A stretch of DNA of 64,000 nucleotides. Source: Salinigranum halophilum. GTDB taxonomy: Archaea > Halobacteriota > Halobacteria > Halobacteriales > Haloferacaceae. Below the pieces are notes generated by a model. The model made no database searches. It saw only the letters and a list, made by a program, of their open reading frames with translations, and was not told where the DNA came from. Below, piece after piece: positions 6,952 through 43,696 of this stretch. Numbering within the stretch: the first letter of the stretch is position 1; each line of letters starts with the position of its first letter. The DNA lies in NCBI RefSeq assembly GCF_007004735.1, contig NZ_SSNL01000007.1:1-64000 (forward strand), given 5' to 3'. The translations under genes were made by a program, and so were the position numbers.

Positions 6952-8685
6952 CTACTGCAGCGCGTCCAGCGCGAACTCGAACCCGGCGACGGGAAGTTCG
7001 AGGTCGTGTTCGACCAGCACTTCGGGGTGGAACTCGCCGACGACACCCACCGACTCGCCGTCGATGACGACGTCGGCAGCGCGACCGGGGATGAACGACG
7101 GATGCTCGGTCGCCGGGGTTTCGAGGTCAGCGTCGAAGTCGCGGCAGAGCGCAGCGAGACGGGCCTTCGCGTCCTCGTAGGTCGCGTCGTACCGGGCCAG
7201 GACACCGGCGACGTGTCTGGACTCGCGGACGTGCGTCGACTCGGCGGCGTCGACGTGGGCGACGAGGCCGATTTCGGCGAGGTCCTGCGGGTACGACCGG
7301 TGGGTGTTGTTCTCGAGCACCATCATCAGCGAGGGGAGCGCCCACGTCCGAAGCATGGTGTAGTCCTCGCTGTACGGTTCGGTGATGCTCACCGCCTCCT
7401 GTCCGCCGAGGGCGTCGTCGCCCTCGGTGAGGCGCATCCGGTCGTAGTTCTCTCCCTCAGAGATCATGTGGAAGTTCAGCAGGTCCTCGAAGCCGAGTCC
7501 CACGAGCGACGCGCGGGCGGCGTTCTCGAGGCGGGAGCGGTCGTGGCGTCCGCCGACGGTCGAGACGTCGGGGTACGTCGGCTCCAGTTCGTTGAAGCCG
7601 TACGCGCGGCCCACGTCGTCGATGAGGTCGAGCGGGTGGAGGACGTCGACCCGGTAGGGCGGAACCTCCACGTCGTACGCCACCTCGTCGCCGAGGGTGT
7701 ACGTCGCGTCGAGCCCCGAGCGCTCGAAGAGGTCGACGACCTCCTCGCTGTCGAGGTCGACCCCGAGGACCGATTCGATGCGGTCGTGTGAGACCGTCTT
7801 CTCGTCGACCGAGAAGTCCGGACGGACGAGGTGGGCACCGTCGTCGGGTGCCCGGGCCTCGTCCGCGTACGCGACTTCGACCTGTTCGATGGTCGCCCCG
7901 CGTGCGGAGAGCGCGTAGCAGATGATGGTACACATCCGGTCGATGGTCCACTGGTCGGTCCCCGTGAGTTCGACGAGCAGGTCACGCGAGTCGGTGTCGA
8001 CCTCGGTCCGACGGCCGTTGATGACCGGCGGGAACGAGAAGAGGCCGAGTTCGTCGTAGATGGCCGGGTAGCGGTTGTACTCACTCACGAGGTCGGCGTA
8101 CGTCTTCCCCGTCGGGTGCTGTTCGAGGACTTCCTGCGGCGTGAGTTCGTCGTTCGAGTCGAGCGCGACGAAGCGGTCGCCGTCCGGCGCGACTCCCCTG
8201 TACGTGATGGTGTTGTCCCCGCCCTCGTCGGTGAGGACTTCACCCTTCAGCATCGCGAGGTCGTGGATACCGATCGCGCCTTTGGCGCGCTTGCGACCCA
8301 TCGTCGCGTGGAGTTTCTCCTGGAGTTGGATGAGCGAGTCGAGGCCGGCCTCGTCGAGGTCGACCCCTCTGACGACGGCACCCGTGACGTAGGGACGTTC
8401 CTCGGGGACGGACGAGTCCACCTCGATGGTCCAGTCGGCGTCGTTCGTCTTCGGAATCGCGACGCCTCTGTCGCTTCCGTACTGGTACCGCAGCGACCGT
8501 GCGACACCCTCGACCGAGAGCCGGTCGAGTCGGTCGGGACCGAACTCCAGTTGCATCTTCCCGTCTTCGGTCTCGCCCTCGTACTCCAGGCCGAGTGCGA
8601 ACAGGTCGTCTTTGAACGCCTCTTCGCTCTTCTCCTCGCCGGTGAGCCGCTGCAGTTCCTCGAGGGAGACGTCGACGACGGGCAT
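6952..8685 (-). CDS. pheT: Phenylalanyl-tRNA synthetase beta subunit
   Basis: This 577-residue subunit forms the alpha2-beta2 enzyme that charges tRNA-Phe. Its length fits the archaeal/eukaryal-type beta subunit, shorter than the bacterial form. The N-terminus MPVVDVSLEELQRLTG is typical. A central B3/B4 editing region (MLKGEVLTDEGGDNTITYRG) is followed by the B5 DNA-binding-like fold (VDVLHPLDLIDDVGRAYGFN) and a catalytic-like domain ending GVVGEFHPEVLVEHDLELPV. The ATG overlaps the pheS stop (ATGA), so the two subunits are translationally coupled. Confidence 0.97.
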   Translation of the reverse strand: MPVVDVSLEELQRLTGEEKSEEAFKDDLFALGLEYEGETEDGKMQLEFGPDRLDRLSVEGVARSLRYQYGSDRGVAIPKTNDADWTIEVDSSVPEERPYVTGAVVRGVDLDEAGLDSLIQLQEKLHATMGRKRAKGAIGIHDLAMLKGEVLTDEGGDNTITYRGVAPDGDRFVALDSNDELTPQEVLEQHPTGKTYADLVSEYNRYPAIYDELGLFSFPPVINGRRTEVDTDSRDLLVELTGTDQWTIDRMCTIICYALSARGATIEQVEVAYADEARAPDDGAHLVRPDFSVDEKTVSHDRIESVLGVDLDSEEVVDLFERSGLDATYTLGDEVAYDVEVPPYRVDVLHPLDLIDDVGRAYGFNELEPTYPDVSTVGGRHDRSRLENAARASLVGLGFEDLLNFHMISEGENYDRMRLTEGDDALGGQEAVSITEPYSEDYTMLRTWALPSLMMVLENNTHRSYPQDLAEIGLVAHVDAAESTHVRESRHVAGVLARYDATYEDAKARLAALCRDFDADLETPATEHPSFIPGRAADVVIDGESVGVVGEFHPEVLVEHDLELPVAGFEFALDALQ

Positions 8686-10202
8686 CAGTGAAGCACCTCC
8701 GTCTCTCGCAGCAGGTCGAGGTCACACAGCGTCCCGTGCACGTCGCGGATGTCGTCGAAGCCGTACATGAGCATCAACAGGCGTTCCAGCGCGAGCCCCC
8801 AGGCCATCACGTCGCACTCGACACCGAGTGGCCGAAGCACCTCGTCGCGGAACATTCCCGAGTTGCCGATTTCGATGAGTTCGTCCGTCTCGGGGTGTCG
8901 GCCGAACAGCTCGAACGACGGCTCCGTGTAGGGGTTGTAGTGCGGTTTGAACTGGATGTCGGTGATGCCGAACTGGCTGTAGAACTCGGTGAACGTGCCC
9001 ATCAGGTCCCGCACGGAGAGGTCCTCGGCCATCACCCACCCTTCGATCTGGAAGAACTCGAGGAGGTGTGTCGGGTCCAGCGTATCGTTTCTGTATACTT
9101 TCTCGACGGAGAAATATCGTTGTGGCGGCTCCAGTTCCCCGACCTCGTGTCCCGAGAGATACCGCATCGACAGCGACGTGGTGTGCCCGCGGAGGTCGAC
9201 CTCCCGCGCCACGTCCTCGGTCCACGGGGAGTGATAGCCGTCGCCGTCCTCGCCCTCGCCGTTGCGGTGGGCGTCTTCGACCCGGGCGACCAGGTCCTCG
9301 GGGAGCTCTCGCATCGGCGGCACGTCGAGGGCGAACTGGTCCCAGTGGGTGCGGGCGGGGTGGTCCTGAGGCATGAACAGGCAGTCGTTGATCCAGAACT
9401 CCGCGTCGGCGTGCGGGCCGTCCATCTCCTCGAAGCCCATCCCCACCAGGACGTCCTTGACGCGTTCGGCGGTCTGCCTGAGGATGTGGGTCTTCCCGCC
9501 TCGGTGTTCGGGCGCGTCGGCCTCGACGTTGTAGGCGGTGAACTCCACGTCGCGCCACTCGCCGGAGGTCAGCATCTCGGGCGTGAGTCGGTCGACCGTC
9601 TCCGCGACCTCGACGCCCTCCAGCATGACGGCGTCGACACCGGCGTCGGTCAGGGTCACGGAACGGACGGTGCGCTCGTGTCGCTCGACGAGGTTGCGGG
9701 ACTCAAGCTGGTCGAGCACGTCGGCGTCGACGCCGTCGACATCGCCGTCGTCGTGGAGAGCCGCGAGCGCGGCCGCCTCGGCGTCGGCGTCGGGGTCCGC
9801 GTCGTCGGCCGAGAGCTGCCCGCTCTCGATGGTACCGTACCCCTTGCGGGCGAGGTTGGCGAGCGCGACGTCGACCGCGCCCCCGTCGAGCCCCGAAGCG
9901 CCGATGACCTGCCCCATCGAGACGGGCTCGTCATGGGCACCCGCGTCGACGGCGGCGCGGTAGAGGCGGACCTCGGGGAGGCCCTCGTCGACGTACCGTT
10001 CGCCCTCGTCCGTGAGCGTGTAGTCGACGACGACTGCTTCGTCGACGGCGACGAGCCCCGCCGCTTCGAGTTCGAAGGCCGCGCCGGTGACGGTCTCGGG
10101 CTTCAGCGCCGTCGCGTCGGCGAGGTCGTCGATGGTCTGTGCGTCGTCTGCCGACGCGGTCGTGAGGACCGCGTGCTGGGCTTCCGGGAGTGTGCGTGTC
10201 AT
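8685..10202 (-). CDS. pheS: Phenylalanyl-tRNA synthetase alpha subunit
   Basis: This 505-residue catalytic subunit is a class II synthetase. The first roughly 200 residues are winged-helix modules that replace the bacterial coiled coil (LPEAQHAVLTTASADDAQ, then ALKPETVTGAAFELE). Motif 2 is SVEKVYRNDTLDPTHLLEF near residue 367, FKPHYNPYTEPSFELF contributes to the Phe pocket, and motif 3 is VMAWGLALERLLML near 464. It is the first gene of pheST. Its ATG has no Shine-Dalgarno sequence and is preceded by 147 nt of structured leader after the stop of a Phe-rich micro-ORF (10350-10427). Confidence 0.97.
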   Translation of the reverse strand: MTRTLPEAQHAVLTTASADDAQTIDDLADATALKPETVTGAAFELEAAGLVAVDEAVVVDYTLTDEGERYVDEGLPEVRLYRAAVDAGAHDEPVSMGQVIGASGLDGGAVDVALANLARKGYGTIESGQLSADDADPDADAEAAALAALHDDGDVDGVDADVLDQLESRNLVERHERTVRSVTLTDAGVDAVMLEGVEVAETVDRLTPEMLTSGEWRDVEFTAYNVEADAPEHRGGKTHILRQTAERVKDVLVGMGFEEMDGPHADAEFWINDCLFMPQDHPARTHWDQFALDVPPMRELPEDLVARVEDAHRNGEGEDGDGYHSPWTEDVAREVDLRGHTTSLSMRYLSGHEVGELEPPQRYFSVEKVYRNDTLDPTHLLEFFQIEGWVMAEDLSVRDLMGTFTEFYSQFGITDIQFKPHYNPYTEPSFELFGRHPETDELIEIGNSGMFRDEVLRPLGVECDVMAWGLALERLLMLMYGFDDIRDVHGTLCDLDLLRETEVLH

Positions 10203-10312
10203 GTGTCGCGAGTGTCGGTCGGTGTGTGGTGGAGCGTCCGGTCGTCAGTTAGCCGTTGCGGGTCGTGACCAGCGCGTGCGTGCGGTCCGGTCGAGCACGC
10301 CGGTTTCGCCCG

Positions 10313-10332
10313 TCGCATCCCCTCGGATGCGA
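10313..10332 (-). promoter_or_regulatory. 8-bp hairpin in the pheST leader
   Basis: The arms tcgcatcc and ggatgcga are perfectly complementary around a 4-base loop (10321-10324). The hairpin begins 17 nt after the stop of the Phe-rich micro-ORF and about 110 nt before the pheS ATG. A self-complementary GC block (10341-10349) lies between stop and hairpin. No T-tract follows, so it is not an obvious intrinsic terminator; it could act as an anti-anti-structure, pause site or translational block. Confidence 0.55.
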
Positions 10333-10349
10333 GCGAGGTCCGCCGGCGG

Positions 10350-10427
10350 TCAGCCCGCGAAGAAGAAGCCGAACCCCGCTTCCGGTGGCTGGGGAGCGGT
10401 CCGCCGCACGTGGGGTTCGGACACCAT
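10350..10427 (-). CDS. Phe-rich leader micro-ORF upstream of pheST
   Basis: A 25-codon reading frame starts with ATG GTG and stops 147 nt before pheS on the same strand. Its last eight residues are GFGFFFAG, four Phe in five codons (TTC, GGC, TTC, TTC, TTC), in a place where nothing selects for Phe except a sensor of charged tRNA-Phe. The arms ccgaacccc (minus strand, codons 3-6) and ggggttcgg (overlapping codon 18-20) can form a 9-bp stem that a ribosome stalled on the Phe codons would cover. A T-rich box near 10455-10462 (aacgttttt on the minus strand) can serve as its promoter. The design parallels the pheM leader of enteric pheST; function here is inference. Confidence 0.55.
   Translation of the reverse strand: MVSEPHVRRTAPQPPEAGFGFFFAG
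10369..10420 (-). promoter_or_regulatory. Long-range stem within the Phe leader ORF
   Basis: The bases at 10412-10420 and 10369-10377 are perfectly complementary over 9 bp with a 34-nt loop, all inside the micro-ORF. The downstream arm touches the first Phe codons, so the position of a translating ribosome would decide whether this stem or downstream structures form. Confidence 0.5.
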
Positions 10428-10510
10428 GTCAGTGGGAGAACGTCGCGCGGACAAAAACGTTGTGAGTGGGCGCGAGAGCACGGGCGGTGCGGACTCGACT
10501 CCCACGCGTT

Positions 10511-13253: not shown

Positions 13254-14921
13254 TCAGTCGTCGGCCTCGCCCGCAACCCGCCGCCGCGGCGATTCGAGGT
13301 CGATATCGAGGTCGTCGAGGGCCGCTTCGACCTCCGCGCGTTTCTCCTGGTGCTCTTCGAGGAACTCCTTCATCAGGACCGCCGCTTGCTCTTTGCAGTC
13401 GCCACAGAGACGTTCGCCGCCGACGCACTCGTCGTACACGCGTTTGGCGAAGTCGTCGTCGTCGCCCGAGAGGAGGTACGCGTACAGTTCGTACACCGGG
13501 CACTTGTCGGCCTCGCCGCCGAGTTCGCGCTGCTTTTCCGCGGTGTCTCGGCCGCCAGTGGTCGCCGACTTGACCTTCGCGTAGCCGTCTTCGGGGTCGT
13601 CGAGGAGCGAGATGTGGCTCGCCGGGATGGACGAGGACATCTTCCCGCCCGTGAGCCCGGTCATGAACCGGTGGTAGATAGAGGAGGGCATCTGGAAGCC
13701 GTAGCCGCCGTTGTCGACTTCGACCTCGCGAGCGAGTTCCTCGGCGTCTTCGGGCGAGAGCTCGAACGCGTCGACGTGCTCGTCGTACCGCCGCTTCTCG
13801 CCCTCGATGCGCTCGACGAGGTCCTCGAACGCGTCGTCGGAGGCGTTACGGTCGAGAAAGCGCACGCGTGGACGAAGGGGTTCCATGCCGGCGTTCTGGA
13901 GCTTCTTGACCGCGGAGGCTCTGACGGAGTCGTCGAGTTCGGGGACGTCGACGGTGGGGCGGTCGGCGTCGAGCGTGACGGCGTCCGGGTCGACGAGATA
14001 CTGCGCGCCGTGGATGCAGCGGACGTCCTGTTCCGCCCCTGCGCGGGCGACGAGGTGCTCGTGGGCTTCAGCGACGAGAGCCCGCTCGTCGTCGTCGAGT
14101 TCCTGGCTGAAGTACGCCTCGGTCACCTTGAAAAAGCGCATCCGGGCGGCGAGGTCACGGGCGAGACGGACGTGGGGGTCCTGGTCCGGACCGACCGGAA
14201 TCACGGTGGGCTTCGGCTCGTCCATCTGCGGGTAGAGGATGTCCGCCATCTGCGTCACGACGCTCTGCATGTGGGAGACCGAAGTCTCGCTGTCGAAGCC
14301 GTAGATGCCCTCGAACTCCGCGAACCGGGCCTTCGAGCCGAGTTCGAAGGCGAGGTCCTGTACCTCGCGGTTCCCGGACTGGCGGTAGAGCGTGCCCTCC
14401 TCGGGGTCGAACCCGAGCGCCAAGAGCGAGAGCAGGTAGTCGCGGGCGTGCTCGTCGATTTCCGCCCAGGTGAGGCCGCGCGCGGCGTGCGCTTCGAGGT
14501 CCGCGATGAGGCCGTAGGCGTCGGCACCCTGCTGTTGGTGCCAGATGATCTCGTCGAACACCAGTTTGTGCCCGATGTGGGGGTCGCCGGTCGGCATGAA
14601 CCCCGAGAGGACGGCTGCGGGTTCGTCGTTCCGGAGGGCCTCGGCCACCGGGCCGTAGTCGCGATGGCCGAAGATGACGCCGCGACGCATCAGGTAGTGG
14701 GGGTTCGGGACCGATTCGATGAGTTCGTCGAACTCCTCGATGCCGAACTCCTCGAACAGTTTCCGGTAGTCGGCGATGGTCGACGAGCCCCACGGGTCCA
14801 GCGTCACGTCGTCCGCGCCGGCGGCCGTGCCGCCGTCCGCACGCGTACGGGCTCGATGCTCGGGGGCGACTCCGGGGGCGTCCGCGTCCGCGTCTGTGTC
14901 CGTGGGTGTGTCGTCGGTCAT
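13254..14921 (-). CDS. trpS: Tryptophanyl-tRNA synthetase
   Basis: This class I synthetase of 555 residues charges tRNA-Trp. After an acidic, Thr/Asp/Ala-rich N-terminal extension of about 40 residues, HIGH is seen as PTGDPHIGHKLVF near residue 114 and KMSKS as TGGKMSSSIPASH near 427. The C-terminus has CVGGERLCGDCKEQAA, a likely metal or structural knuckle. The ATG overlaps the endA stop (ATGA), so it is translated after endA. The longest open frame runs further upstream through endA in another frame, but the start at 14921 is the only plausible one. Confidence 0.96.
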   Translation of the reverse strand: MTDDTPTDTDADADAPGVAPEHRARTRADGGTAAGADDVTLDPWGSSTIADYRKLFEEFGIEEFDELIESVPNPHYLMRRGVIFGHRDYGPVAEALRNDEPAAVLSGFMPTGDPHIGHKLVFDEIIWHQQQGADAYGLIADLEAHAARGLTWAEIDEHARDYLLSLLALGFDPEEGTLYRQSGNREVQDLAFELGSKARFAEFEGIYGFDSETSVSHMQSVVTQMADILYPQMDEPKPTVIPVGPDQDPHVRLARDLAARMRFFKVTEAYFSQELDDDERALVAEAHEHLVARAGAEQDVRCIHGAQYLVDPDAVTLDADRPTVDVPELDDSVRASAVKKLQNAGMEPLRPRVRFLDRNASDDAFEDLVERIEGEKRRYDEHVDAFELSPEDAEELAREVEVDNGGYGFQMPSSIYHRFMTGLTGGKMSSSIPASHISLLDDPEDGYAKVKSATTGGRDTAEKQRELGGEADKCPVYELYAYLLSGDDDDFAKRVYDECVGGERLCGDCKEQAAVLMKEFLEEHQEKRAEVEAALDDLDIDLESPRRRVAGEADD

Positions 14922-15979
14922 GGGGTCAACCGGGCTACGGAGAGCCAGTCTACTCCACCGTTGGCGTCGGTCAGCGCAAAAACCATTCGTTTGCGAACCC
15001 CACCAGCGAGTCGTACGTCGAGCGAGAGCTCTCGCGGGAGGACGGTGTGGTCCGGGTCGAGGACGCGGACGAGCGAGTCGGAGTGCGAGAGGTCCGAAAC
15101 CGTGGAGAAGGTCTCGTACACCCGGAAGTCGGCGCCGAACTTGAATCCGGACTTCGGGACACCGCCCTCGTCGCGGAGAGCCGTGTACGTCCGAAGTCGG
15201 CGGTCGAACCGGTCGCCTTCGACCTCGCGACCGCGCGCGACGACGGCGCTGTCGTCGGCCATCGGCTCGCCGGAGGCGTCGGTCACCGCCAGCGCGTCCT
15301 GTCGAACCAGCGAGGCGGCCTCCAGCAGAGAGAGTTGAAGCGGGCCGGCGTCGGCGTTCCGTCCGTAGAGCCGTTGCCCGTAGAAGTGTCCCTCGTACAG
15401 GGTCTCTGGCGGCTCCCACACGAGGACGCGATCGGCGAGGAGCGTTCCCTCGAGCTCCCGGGGAGGGTCGGTGTCGAGCGTGCCACCGGGTGCGTCGTGG
15501 GTGGTCTCGAAGTACGTGAGGTCGCCGTCCTCGTCGACGACGGCGAGGACCACGTCACCGAGCGCGCGGGGAGAGAGCGACTCACGTTCGCCGACGACGC
15601 GGACGCGATGGGCGACCTCGTCGTCCCACGGCCCGCTCCCGCGGGGGTAGACGACGAAATCGACGTCACTCGCGCGCTCGGTCTCGTCGGCGCGGCCGGC
15701 CGGAGAGAGGTAGAAGCCGCGGTCGCGGAGGTCCTTGTAGACGACGAACTCCAGGACGACGCCCGTGGTCGCGAGGAAGGCCCGGAAGTCGAGTGGTCTG
15801 CCTTCGAAGTCGACGCTGTCGAGGTCTCCACGCTGGAGCAGGTGTGCGGCCTCGACGGGGGCCAGTTCGAGCCCGTTGCCGCCGGTCGGCCGGCCGTACC
15901 CCCGCGAGTCGTAGAAGCGCTGACGGGCGTTACCGTCGAGCCGAACCGTCCGCCCGTCGGCGTCGAGCGTCGCGTGCAT
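14918..15979 (-). CDS. endA: tRNA-splicing endonuclease
   Basis: This 353-residue enzyme cleaves introns from pre-tRNA (and archaeal pre-rRNA) at bulge-helix-bulge sites. The length indicates the fused homodimeric type with two EndA repeats per chain. The N-terminal repeat (YDSRGYGRP, RDRGFYLSPAG, DFVVYPRGSG) is a degenerate structural copy; the C-terminal repeat has the catalytic triad Tyr (ADFRVYETFS, about 286), His (LSHSDSLVRVL, about 298) and Lys (VRKRMVFALTD, about 330). Haloarchaeal tRNA-Trp genes are known to carry a long intron, so pairing endA with trpS puts two steps of tRNA-Trp maturation in one operon. Confidence 0.95.
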   Translation of the reverse strand: MHATLDADGRTVRLDGNARQRFYDSRGYGRPTGGNGLELAPVEAAHLLQRGDLDSVDFEGRPLDFRAFLATTGVVLEFVVYKDLRDRGFYLSPAGRADETERASDVDFVVYPRGSGPWDDEVAHRVRVVGERESLSPRALGDVVLAVVDEDGDLTYFETTHDAPGGTLDTDPPRELEGTLLADRVLVWEPPETLYEGHFYGQRLYGRNADAGPLQLSLLEAASLVRQDALAVTDASGEPMADDSAVVARGREVEGDRFDRRLRTYTALRDEGGVPKSGFKFGADFRVYETFSTVSDLSHSDSLVRVLDPDHTVLPRELSLDVRLAGGVRKRMVFALTDANGGVDWLSVARLTP

Positions 15980-43288: not shown

Positions 43289-43696
43289 TCAGTCGAGCGA
43301 CCCGGCGAGCGCGTCGAGTGCCCTGTCGAGTTCGCCACCGCGTTTCCACGCCGCGACCCGGTCGACGAACGGGAGGGGGAGCGCCAGCGACACGGCCGAC
43401 CGCATCGTAACGCGCGAGCCCTCGTCCTCCCTCGCGTACTGGACCCACGTCTCCATCGACTCGAACGGGCCGGCCTCGCCGACCTGTGTGTAGTAGTAGC
43501 CGTCCGCTCTGGGCTCGAACCTGAGGTCGAACGAGAGTCCGCCGCCGCCGACCGTGACGACCGTCGCGTCGTCCGCCTCGCGGACCGTCCGGACGTCGAA
43601 GCTCCCCTCGGCCGCCACCAGCGTCTCGGGCGAGAGCTGCCGGGCGAGCCGCGCGGGCGTGGCGCGGACGAACCGCGAGCGTTCCACCTCGGCCAT
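43289..43696 (-). CDS. SRPBCC-family protein
   Basis: A 135-residue protein starting MAEVERSRFVRATPARLARQ; upstream in-frame residues look unrelated. The pattern is a helix-grip fold (SFDVRTVREADDATVVTVGG, FDLRFEPRADGYYYTQVGEA, WVQYAREDEGSRVTMRSAVS) with C-terminal helix WKRGGELDRALDALAGSLD. SRPBCC domains bind hydrophobic ligands; the ligand is unknown. Confidence 0.8.
   Translation of the reverse strand: MAEVERSRFVRATPARLARQLSPETLVAAEGSFDVRTVREADDATVVTVGGGGLSFDLRFEPRADGYYYTQVGEAGPFESMETWVQYAREDEGSRVTMRSAVSLALPLPFVDRVAAWKRGGELDRALDALAGSLD

Follow-up and report, generated by a model that had tools for sequence, protein, structure and literature searches.

The locus analysed here raises the question of why an archaeal pheST operon, which encodes the two subunits of phenylalanine--tRNA ligase (PheRS), should be preceded by a short open reading frame (ORF) that ends in a run of Phe codons. 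The locus lies in a stretch of 64,000 nucleotides (nt) from Salinigranum halophilum (contig NZ_SSNL01000007.1, positions 1 to 64,000), which as a whole is called the window below. Leader-peptide attenuation is a textbook bacterial mechanism, and in enteric bacteria pheST is controlled by ribosome-mediated transcription attenuation via the pheM leader peptide. Our answer is that the Phe-rich ORF, leaderless at the start of the pheST mRNA, probably senses charged tRNA-Phe by the position of the ribosome. On a wider scale, it is likely that class-wide and previously unrecognised ribosome-operated, amino-acid-specific attenuators act on synthetase genes of Halobacteria (at least those for Phe and Trp), which would be the first described in archaea and would have an architecture of their own built on leaderless initiation.

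The Phe leader and its distribution

The initial annotation of the locus described a 25-codon ATG frame that precedes pheS, shares its strand and has the tail GFGFFFAG. The frame is indeed present (minus strand, 10427-10350: ATG GTG TCC GAA CCC ... GGG TTC GGC TTC TTC TTC GCG GGC TGA; Table 1), and its stop codon lies 147 nt before the pheS ATG at 10202. Among 80 haloarchaeal pheS loci that were fetched, the ORF filter found the same leader at about 66, the window's own included. The frame is intact across the conserved leaders, which places a short ORF, predicted to be translated, upstream of the operon in question, as in a leader-peptide attenuator. The length of the Phe leaders ranges from 23 to 48 amino acids, and between the two arms of the start-proximal RNA stem (stem A, see below) their residues are poorly conserved. 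In Natrinema (L041, L064, L068) the leaders are enlarged to 46-48 amino acids with frame and stem retained, and the one at L064 contains an internal repeat (ERRTCSGV) within the stem A loop.

A covariance model of leader and stems (R1), built from 38 sequences, matches 68 of the 80 pheS loci at E < 1e-4, part of these being the loci that trained it, and 233 of 292 Halobacteria genomes in 69 of 78 genera. There is one copy in each genome except two, where the second matches (L351, L352) are weak, fall in what resembles coding sequence belonging to other genes, and are probably due to chance. In a phylum-wide draw of Halobacteriota all 39 matches were in Halobacteria, with no matching genome outside the class. 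Because the R1 matches are confined in this way, we regard the Phe leader element, as far as sequence matches can tell, as a Halobacteria trait that is lost or absent in some lineages. The exact DNA pattern of the FGFFF tail occurred in only 3 of 391 genomes, being too strict, and a generic pattern of TATA, ATG and Phe run gave chance matches only. As a control, the 80 loci (1.03 Mb in total) were scanned on both strands for places that unite a T-rich box, a short ORF and, near the ORF start, a stem of 8 or more base pairs (bp). These features coincide at 61 of the 64 scored Phe leaders and elsewhere at only 4 unrelated places, which is more than chance would give at the leaders; a fifth listed match, L022, was a pheS leader overlooked by the F-count filter.

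At the three consecutive Phe positions (FFF), 60 leaders together have 110 TTC, 56 TTT and no TTA or TTG codons, with few replacements. FFF is constant for Phe while the first Phe of the tail varies with pairing, which indicates that pairing in the stem preserves the first Phe and that FFF is preserved for its amino acid. TTT accounts for 56 of the 166 Phe codons at the FFF positions versus 78 of 1488 in pheS, and this raised share may reflect relaxed codon choice or else selection, either for slow codons or for a T tract.

The T-rich box was found in 64 of 66 leaders, and in 54 of these 64 its start is exactly 30 nt upstream of the ATG. Since this spacing fits haloarchaeal promoter geometry, it implies that transcription would begin at the leader AUG or right beside it, and that the leader would be the leaderless 5' end of the mRNA and be translated as a leaderless ORF. 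Differential RNA sequencing of Haloferax volcanii has been published, and Table 2 of that work (Babski et al., PMC4983044), which is devoted to upstream ORFs (uORFs) in 5' untranslated regions (UTRs) of 150-250 nt, gives a 26-amino-acid uORF before HVO_2948 (pheS) and a 23-amino-acid uORF before HVO_A0127 (tryptophan--tRNA ligase), with no additional transcription start site (TSS) marked in the table at either gene. In our sample the Haloferax Phe leaders have 26 amino acids and stand 212 nt before pheS in 5 of 10 loci, the leaders at the other loci having 23-28 amino acids. By length and position, the H. volcanii uORFs given in that table would be the same Phe and Trp elements. A transcript start downstream of the leader, which would have spoken against the initial proposal, is not what the table reports for H. 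volcanii, where the published start lies upstream of the uORF (PMC4983044).

RNA stems and the Trp leader family

A perfect 9-bp stem beside the Phe codons had also been pointed out in the window, and we find it as described (stem A, 10412-10420 with 10369-10377). RNAalifold, run on 38 sequences, returns stem A with 9 bp, stem B with 6 bp, a symmetric 5x5 internal loop and stem C with 6 bp, and in this alignment 15 of the 21 pairs are changed on both sides, 4 of the 9 in stem A among them. In the consensus structure 93.6% of cells pair, as against 27-56% when the 3' partners are slid, and none of 500 shuffles reached the observed score on any of five measures. Stem A compensation is exemplified by the change of CCGAACCC/GGGTTCGG to CCGAATCCC/GGGATTCGG. 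Some of the compensations alter the peptide (first Phe to S at L028, first Phe to V at L073, next Gly to Ala at L019), and T:G wobble partners are frequent in this stem, for example in 9 of 38 sequences at one pair. The leader sequence of the window alone folds no better than shuffles (z = -0.29), as expected because the genome is GC-rich; the evidence for the predicted stems is comparative. The alignment of pheS upstream regions from Halobacteria that had been suggested as a check thus showed the frame, the Phe codons and the adjoining stem to be conserved, with compensatory changes.

The 8-bp hairpin noted earlier after the leader stop (10313-10332, arms TCGCATCC/GGATGCGA) exists, but it is only the tip of a larger conserved hairpin, B-C, at 10298-10348. 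A pairing of the stem A 3' arm of Phe leaders with the downstream CGAAACC (2:3-type) was considered and rejected, as the downstream strand is constant when the arm changes.

Trp-rich leaders (WRW) precede TrpRS genes, for example MQSAPTRWRWRTSGADSLAFAA and MTTALEWQWRWGWQPSSRADSIVAAADAA, and were located upstream of trpS at L204-L207, L209, L213-L216, L218, L223, L224, L226-L229 and L329-L348. They share a start-proximal stem (TCCGCTCCC/GGGAGCGGA), many have the T-rich box, and a conserved pyrimidine-rich tract, GCTCMCTC, follows. Compensatory changes in the stem were found at two positions in 10-11 of 41 sequences, with a further case at L355. The covariance model of the Trp leader (R2) matches 97 of 242 Halobacteria genomes; at the fetched R2 loci the leader stands before TrpRS genes of two types, and leaders of 23 amino acids are found at three plasmid-borne trpS genes (H. 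larsenii, H. mediterranei and Natronorubrum aibiense). The YGGAC/CGAAA loop of the Phe element (Table 1) does not emerge from the Trp leader alignment. Pairing of the Trp stem A 3' arm with GCTCMCTC was rejected, the downstream strand again being constant when the arm changes.

The codon run therefore matches the downstream gene, Phe for PheRS and Trp for TrpRS, and conserved RNA stems adjoin the control codons in the Phe leaders and, in the case of stem A, in the Trp leaders; both are features by which attenuators are recognised. Judged from these comparisons, the Trp family would be an independent parallel matched to its cognate synthetase, which supports reading the leaders as sensors. A search for similar leaders covered the regions before TyrRS, trpC and ilvB-like genes in 14 genomes and before synthetase genes of the PF00133 (Ile/Leu/Val/Met-type) and PF00587 (Thr/Ser/Pro/Gly-type) families in 7 genomes. 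It yielded Trp leaders only, in a scan that may miss the upstream region of genes in which the match begins a long way into the gene.

The window also contains a trpS gene and a tRNA splicing endonuclease gene (13254-15979), about 3 kb upstream of pheS and on the same strand. R2 had no match in the window's own genome, though some relatives carry a Trp leader before this trpS. An R2-like RNA lacking Trp codons (ATGTCCGCTC...GGGAGCGGACAGT) stands before an apparent GNAT-type acetyltransferase gene at L331 (G010) and L332 (G221).

Ribosome position and competing explanations

Stem A overlaps the leaderless initiation site, and its 3' arm is followed by the Phe codons and then by the stop. Ribosomes starting at the 5'-terminal AUG would thus come upon three to four Phe codons once just past stem A, with the stop only a few codons further on. 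When charged tRNA-Phe is scarce, the ribosome would halt on the Phe codons, its footprint would keep stem A open, and the region past the stop would be free to form hairpin B-C. When Phe-tRNA is plentiful, the ribosome would reach the stop and mask the 5' arm of stem B, and stem A would close over the leaderless start site. The state with A open and B-C formed would raise pheST expression and the reverse state would lower it, the output step being either transcription read-through or translation. Stems A and B share no strand, and their mutual exclusion therefore depends on the ribosome. In a footprint model, a ribosome on the Phe codons reduces stem A to about 0 and leaves stem B a mean probability of 0.32-0.41, whereas a ribosome at the stop reduces stem B to about 0 and leaves stem A at 0.69 on average; footprint geometry thus suggests that ribosome position could select the stem state. 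Of the regulatory proposal made at the outset, the sensor half is strongly supported by the conserved frame, the codons, the compensated stem and the Trp parallel. The stalling and the resulting increase in pheST are what we infer, because Phe leaders match PheRS and Trp leaders match TrpRS.

Several points weigh against this reading. The footprint model assumes a footprint of 28 nt, fully melted RNA and low-salt energies at 37 C, and its stem B probabilities differ widely among species. There is no canonical terminator, the longest T run between leader and pheS being 3, and no sequestered Shine-Dalgarno sequence was seen. In line with the initial annotation, which noted that no T-tract follows the hairpin, there is no run of 4 or more T after it; the T-rich tract is instead formed by the Phe codons after stem A. 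In H. volcanii, T stretches terminate transcription, and a hairpin without a T tract does so less efficiently or partly (PMC7237163). The leader is missing at 12 of the 80 pheS loci, and the raised TTT share could come from relaxed codon selection. In addition, a promoter-like motif near pheS could yield leader-independent transcripts. This CTAAC-type motif is found about 30-65 nt before pheS at all pheS loci, even in species without the leader, and from its sequence it is possibly a proximal promoter, perhaps a weak one, giving basal pheS expression; Table 2 of Babski et al. lists no TSS at its position in H. volcanii (PMC4983044).

The most serious alternative is that PheRS or some other protein binds hairpin B-C, with the leader ORF being secondary. 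The highly conserved unpaired YGGAC/CGAAA loop between two covarying stems is what such a site might look like, and E. coli thrS is a precedent for autogenous control by RNA binding. However, a binding site leaves unexplained the Phe codons, the constant distances from stem A to FFF and on to the stop, and the Trp leaders, in whose alignment that loop does not emerge, and we consider autogenous control improbable. It is more improbable still that the product of the leader is a small functional protein whose gene happens to lie in the pheS 5' UTR. The ORF is conserved and has a strong promoter of its own, and stand-alone small genes have been considered by Babski et al. (PMC4983044), but against this the peptide varies from 23 to 48 amino acids and is poorly conserved between the stem arms. 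What is conserved in it, the N-terminus and GFG, tracks the RNA pairing, the compensations change residues, and the Trp leaders have a similar layout with a different peptide that matches a different synthetase.

Stem A and the T-rich Phe codons could also be a terminator blocked by any ribosome starting on the leader, which would report general translation capacity and not Phe. Runs of 5-6 T directly 3' of stem A in 38 of 60 leaders, the overlap of stem A with the leaderless initiation site and the termination of H. volcanii transcription at T stretches (PMC7237163) all fit this, yet the T runs are only 2 long in 10 of the 60 leaders and 3 long in another 10, the Trp codons of the Trp leaders are left unexplained and hairpin B-C is left without a role, and we give this explanation very little chance. 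The idea that a transcription factor recognises stem A in the DNA, as an inverted-repeat operator close to the promoter, would suit the position of the arms no more than about 60 bp 3' of the start site but can practically be dismissed, since the loop length varies by tens of nt (the Natrinema insertions at L041, L064 and L068), T:G wobble partners are frequent and the arms are locked to codon positions.

Known systems and further features

The haloarchaeal Phe leader, read as a ribosome-operated sensor, resembles the enteric pheST/pheM system in having a short Phe-rich ORF before pheST and stems whose pairing would shift with a ribosome on the Phe codons. It differs in that the leader ORF is leaderless at the mRNA 5' end and in an archaeon, in that the control codons come after the first stem and not in its first arm, and in having no T-run terminator before pheS. 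Similarly, the Trp codons (WRW) in leaders before TrpRS genes recall bacterial trpL and attenuated trpS, whereas their layout is of the Phe type, with a start-proximal stem A followed by the GCTCMCTC tract. By analogy, T-box riboswitches also place synthetase genes under control by tRNA charging, but in Halobacteria the sensing would be done by a translated ORF. A T-box reading of a GGTGGA motif was rejected, as C can replace its U and Rfam offers no match; no Rfam family, T-box included, matched at gathering score, and with E values up to 1 allowed none of note matched within the element.

In the literature searched, which left most subscription journals outside its coverage, no leader-peptide attenuator was found in archaea. 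The uORFs themselves were already listed in 2016, and their interpretation as a sensor of tRNA charging appears to be new. In the parts of Babski et al. that we draw on they are listed merely as small proteins in long 5' UTRs, with codon content, RNA structure, conservation and attenuation not discussed there, and control by structured leaders is described as not typical in haloarchaea (PMC4983044). If our reading is true, codon-specific ribosome sensing has evolved in archaea, which have leaderless mRNAs and an RNA polymerase of eukaryote-like type, and H. volcanii would offer a genetically tractable handle on the coupling of transcription with translation and on the ways in which archaea keep track of tRNA charging.

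Table 1. Positions in the window of the Phe leader element and the genes it precedes
Feature	Position	Strand	Basis
T-rich (TATA-like) box, leader promoter P1, 30 nt before leader ATG	10453..10457	-	sequence
Leader ORF, 25 codons + TGA, MVSEPHVRRTAPQPPEAGFGFFFAG	10350..10427	-	sequence; conserved across pheS loci
Predicted stem A 5' arm, CCGAACCCC, leader nt 8-16 (codons 3-6)	10412..10420	-	98% of cells paired
Predicted stem A 3' arm, GGGGTTCGG, within GFG codons	10369..10377	-	alignment and covariation
Putative control codons, three consecutive Phe (TTC TTC TTC)	10359..10367	-	TTC 110, TTT 56, TTA/TTG 0 in 60 leaders
Predicted stem B 5' arm, few nt from leader stop	10343..10348	-	double-sided changes in 5/6 pairs
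Predicted stem C and apical loop, containing 8-bp hairpin 10313-10332	10309..10337	-	double-sided changes in 6/6 pairs
Internal-loop strand CGAAA, opposite YGGAC at 10338-10342	10304..10308	-	nearly invariant unpaired columns
Predicted stem B 3' arm	10298..10303	-	alignment and covariation
Conserved CGCAACGGCTAACTGAC-type / CGGAACNGCTAACTGAC (CTAAC) motif before pheS	10244..10260	-	function inferred
pheS, phenylalanine--tRNA ligase alpha subunit	8685..10202	-	NF003210, TIGR00468
pheT, phenylalanine--tRNA ligase beta subunit	6952..8685	-	TIGR00471 (NCBIfam naming)

Elsewhere in the window, at 43499-43595 on the minus strand, ARAGORN predicts a tRNA-like gene whose anticodon has four bases (cgtc), likely a false positive.
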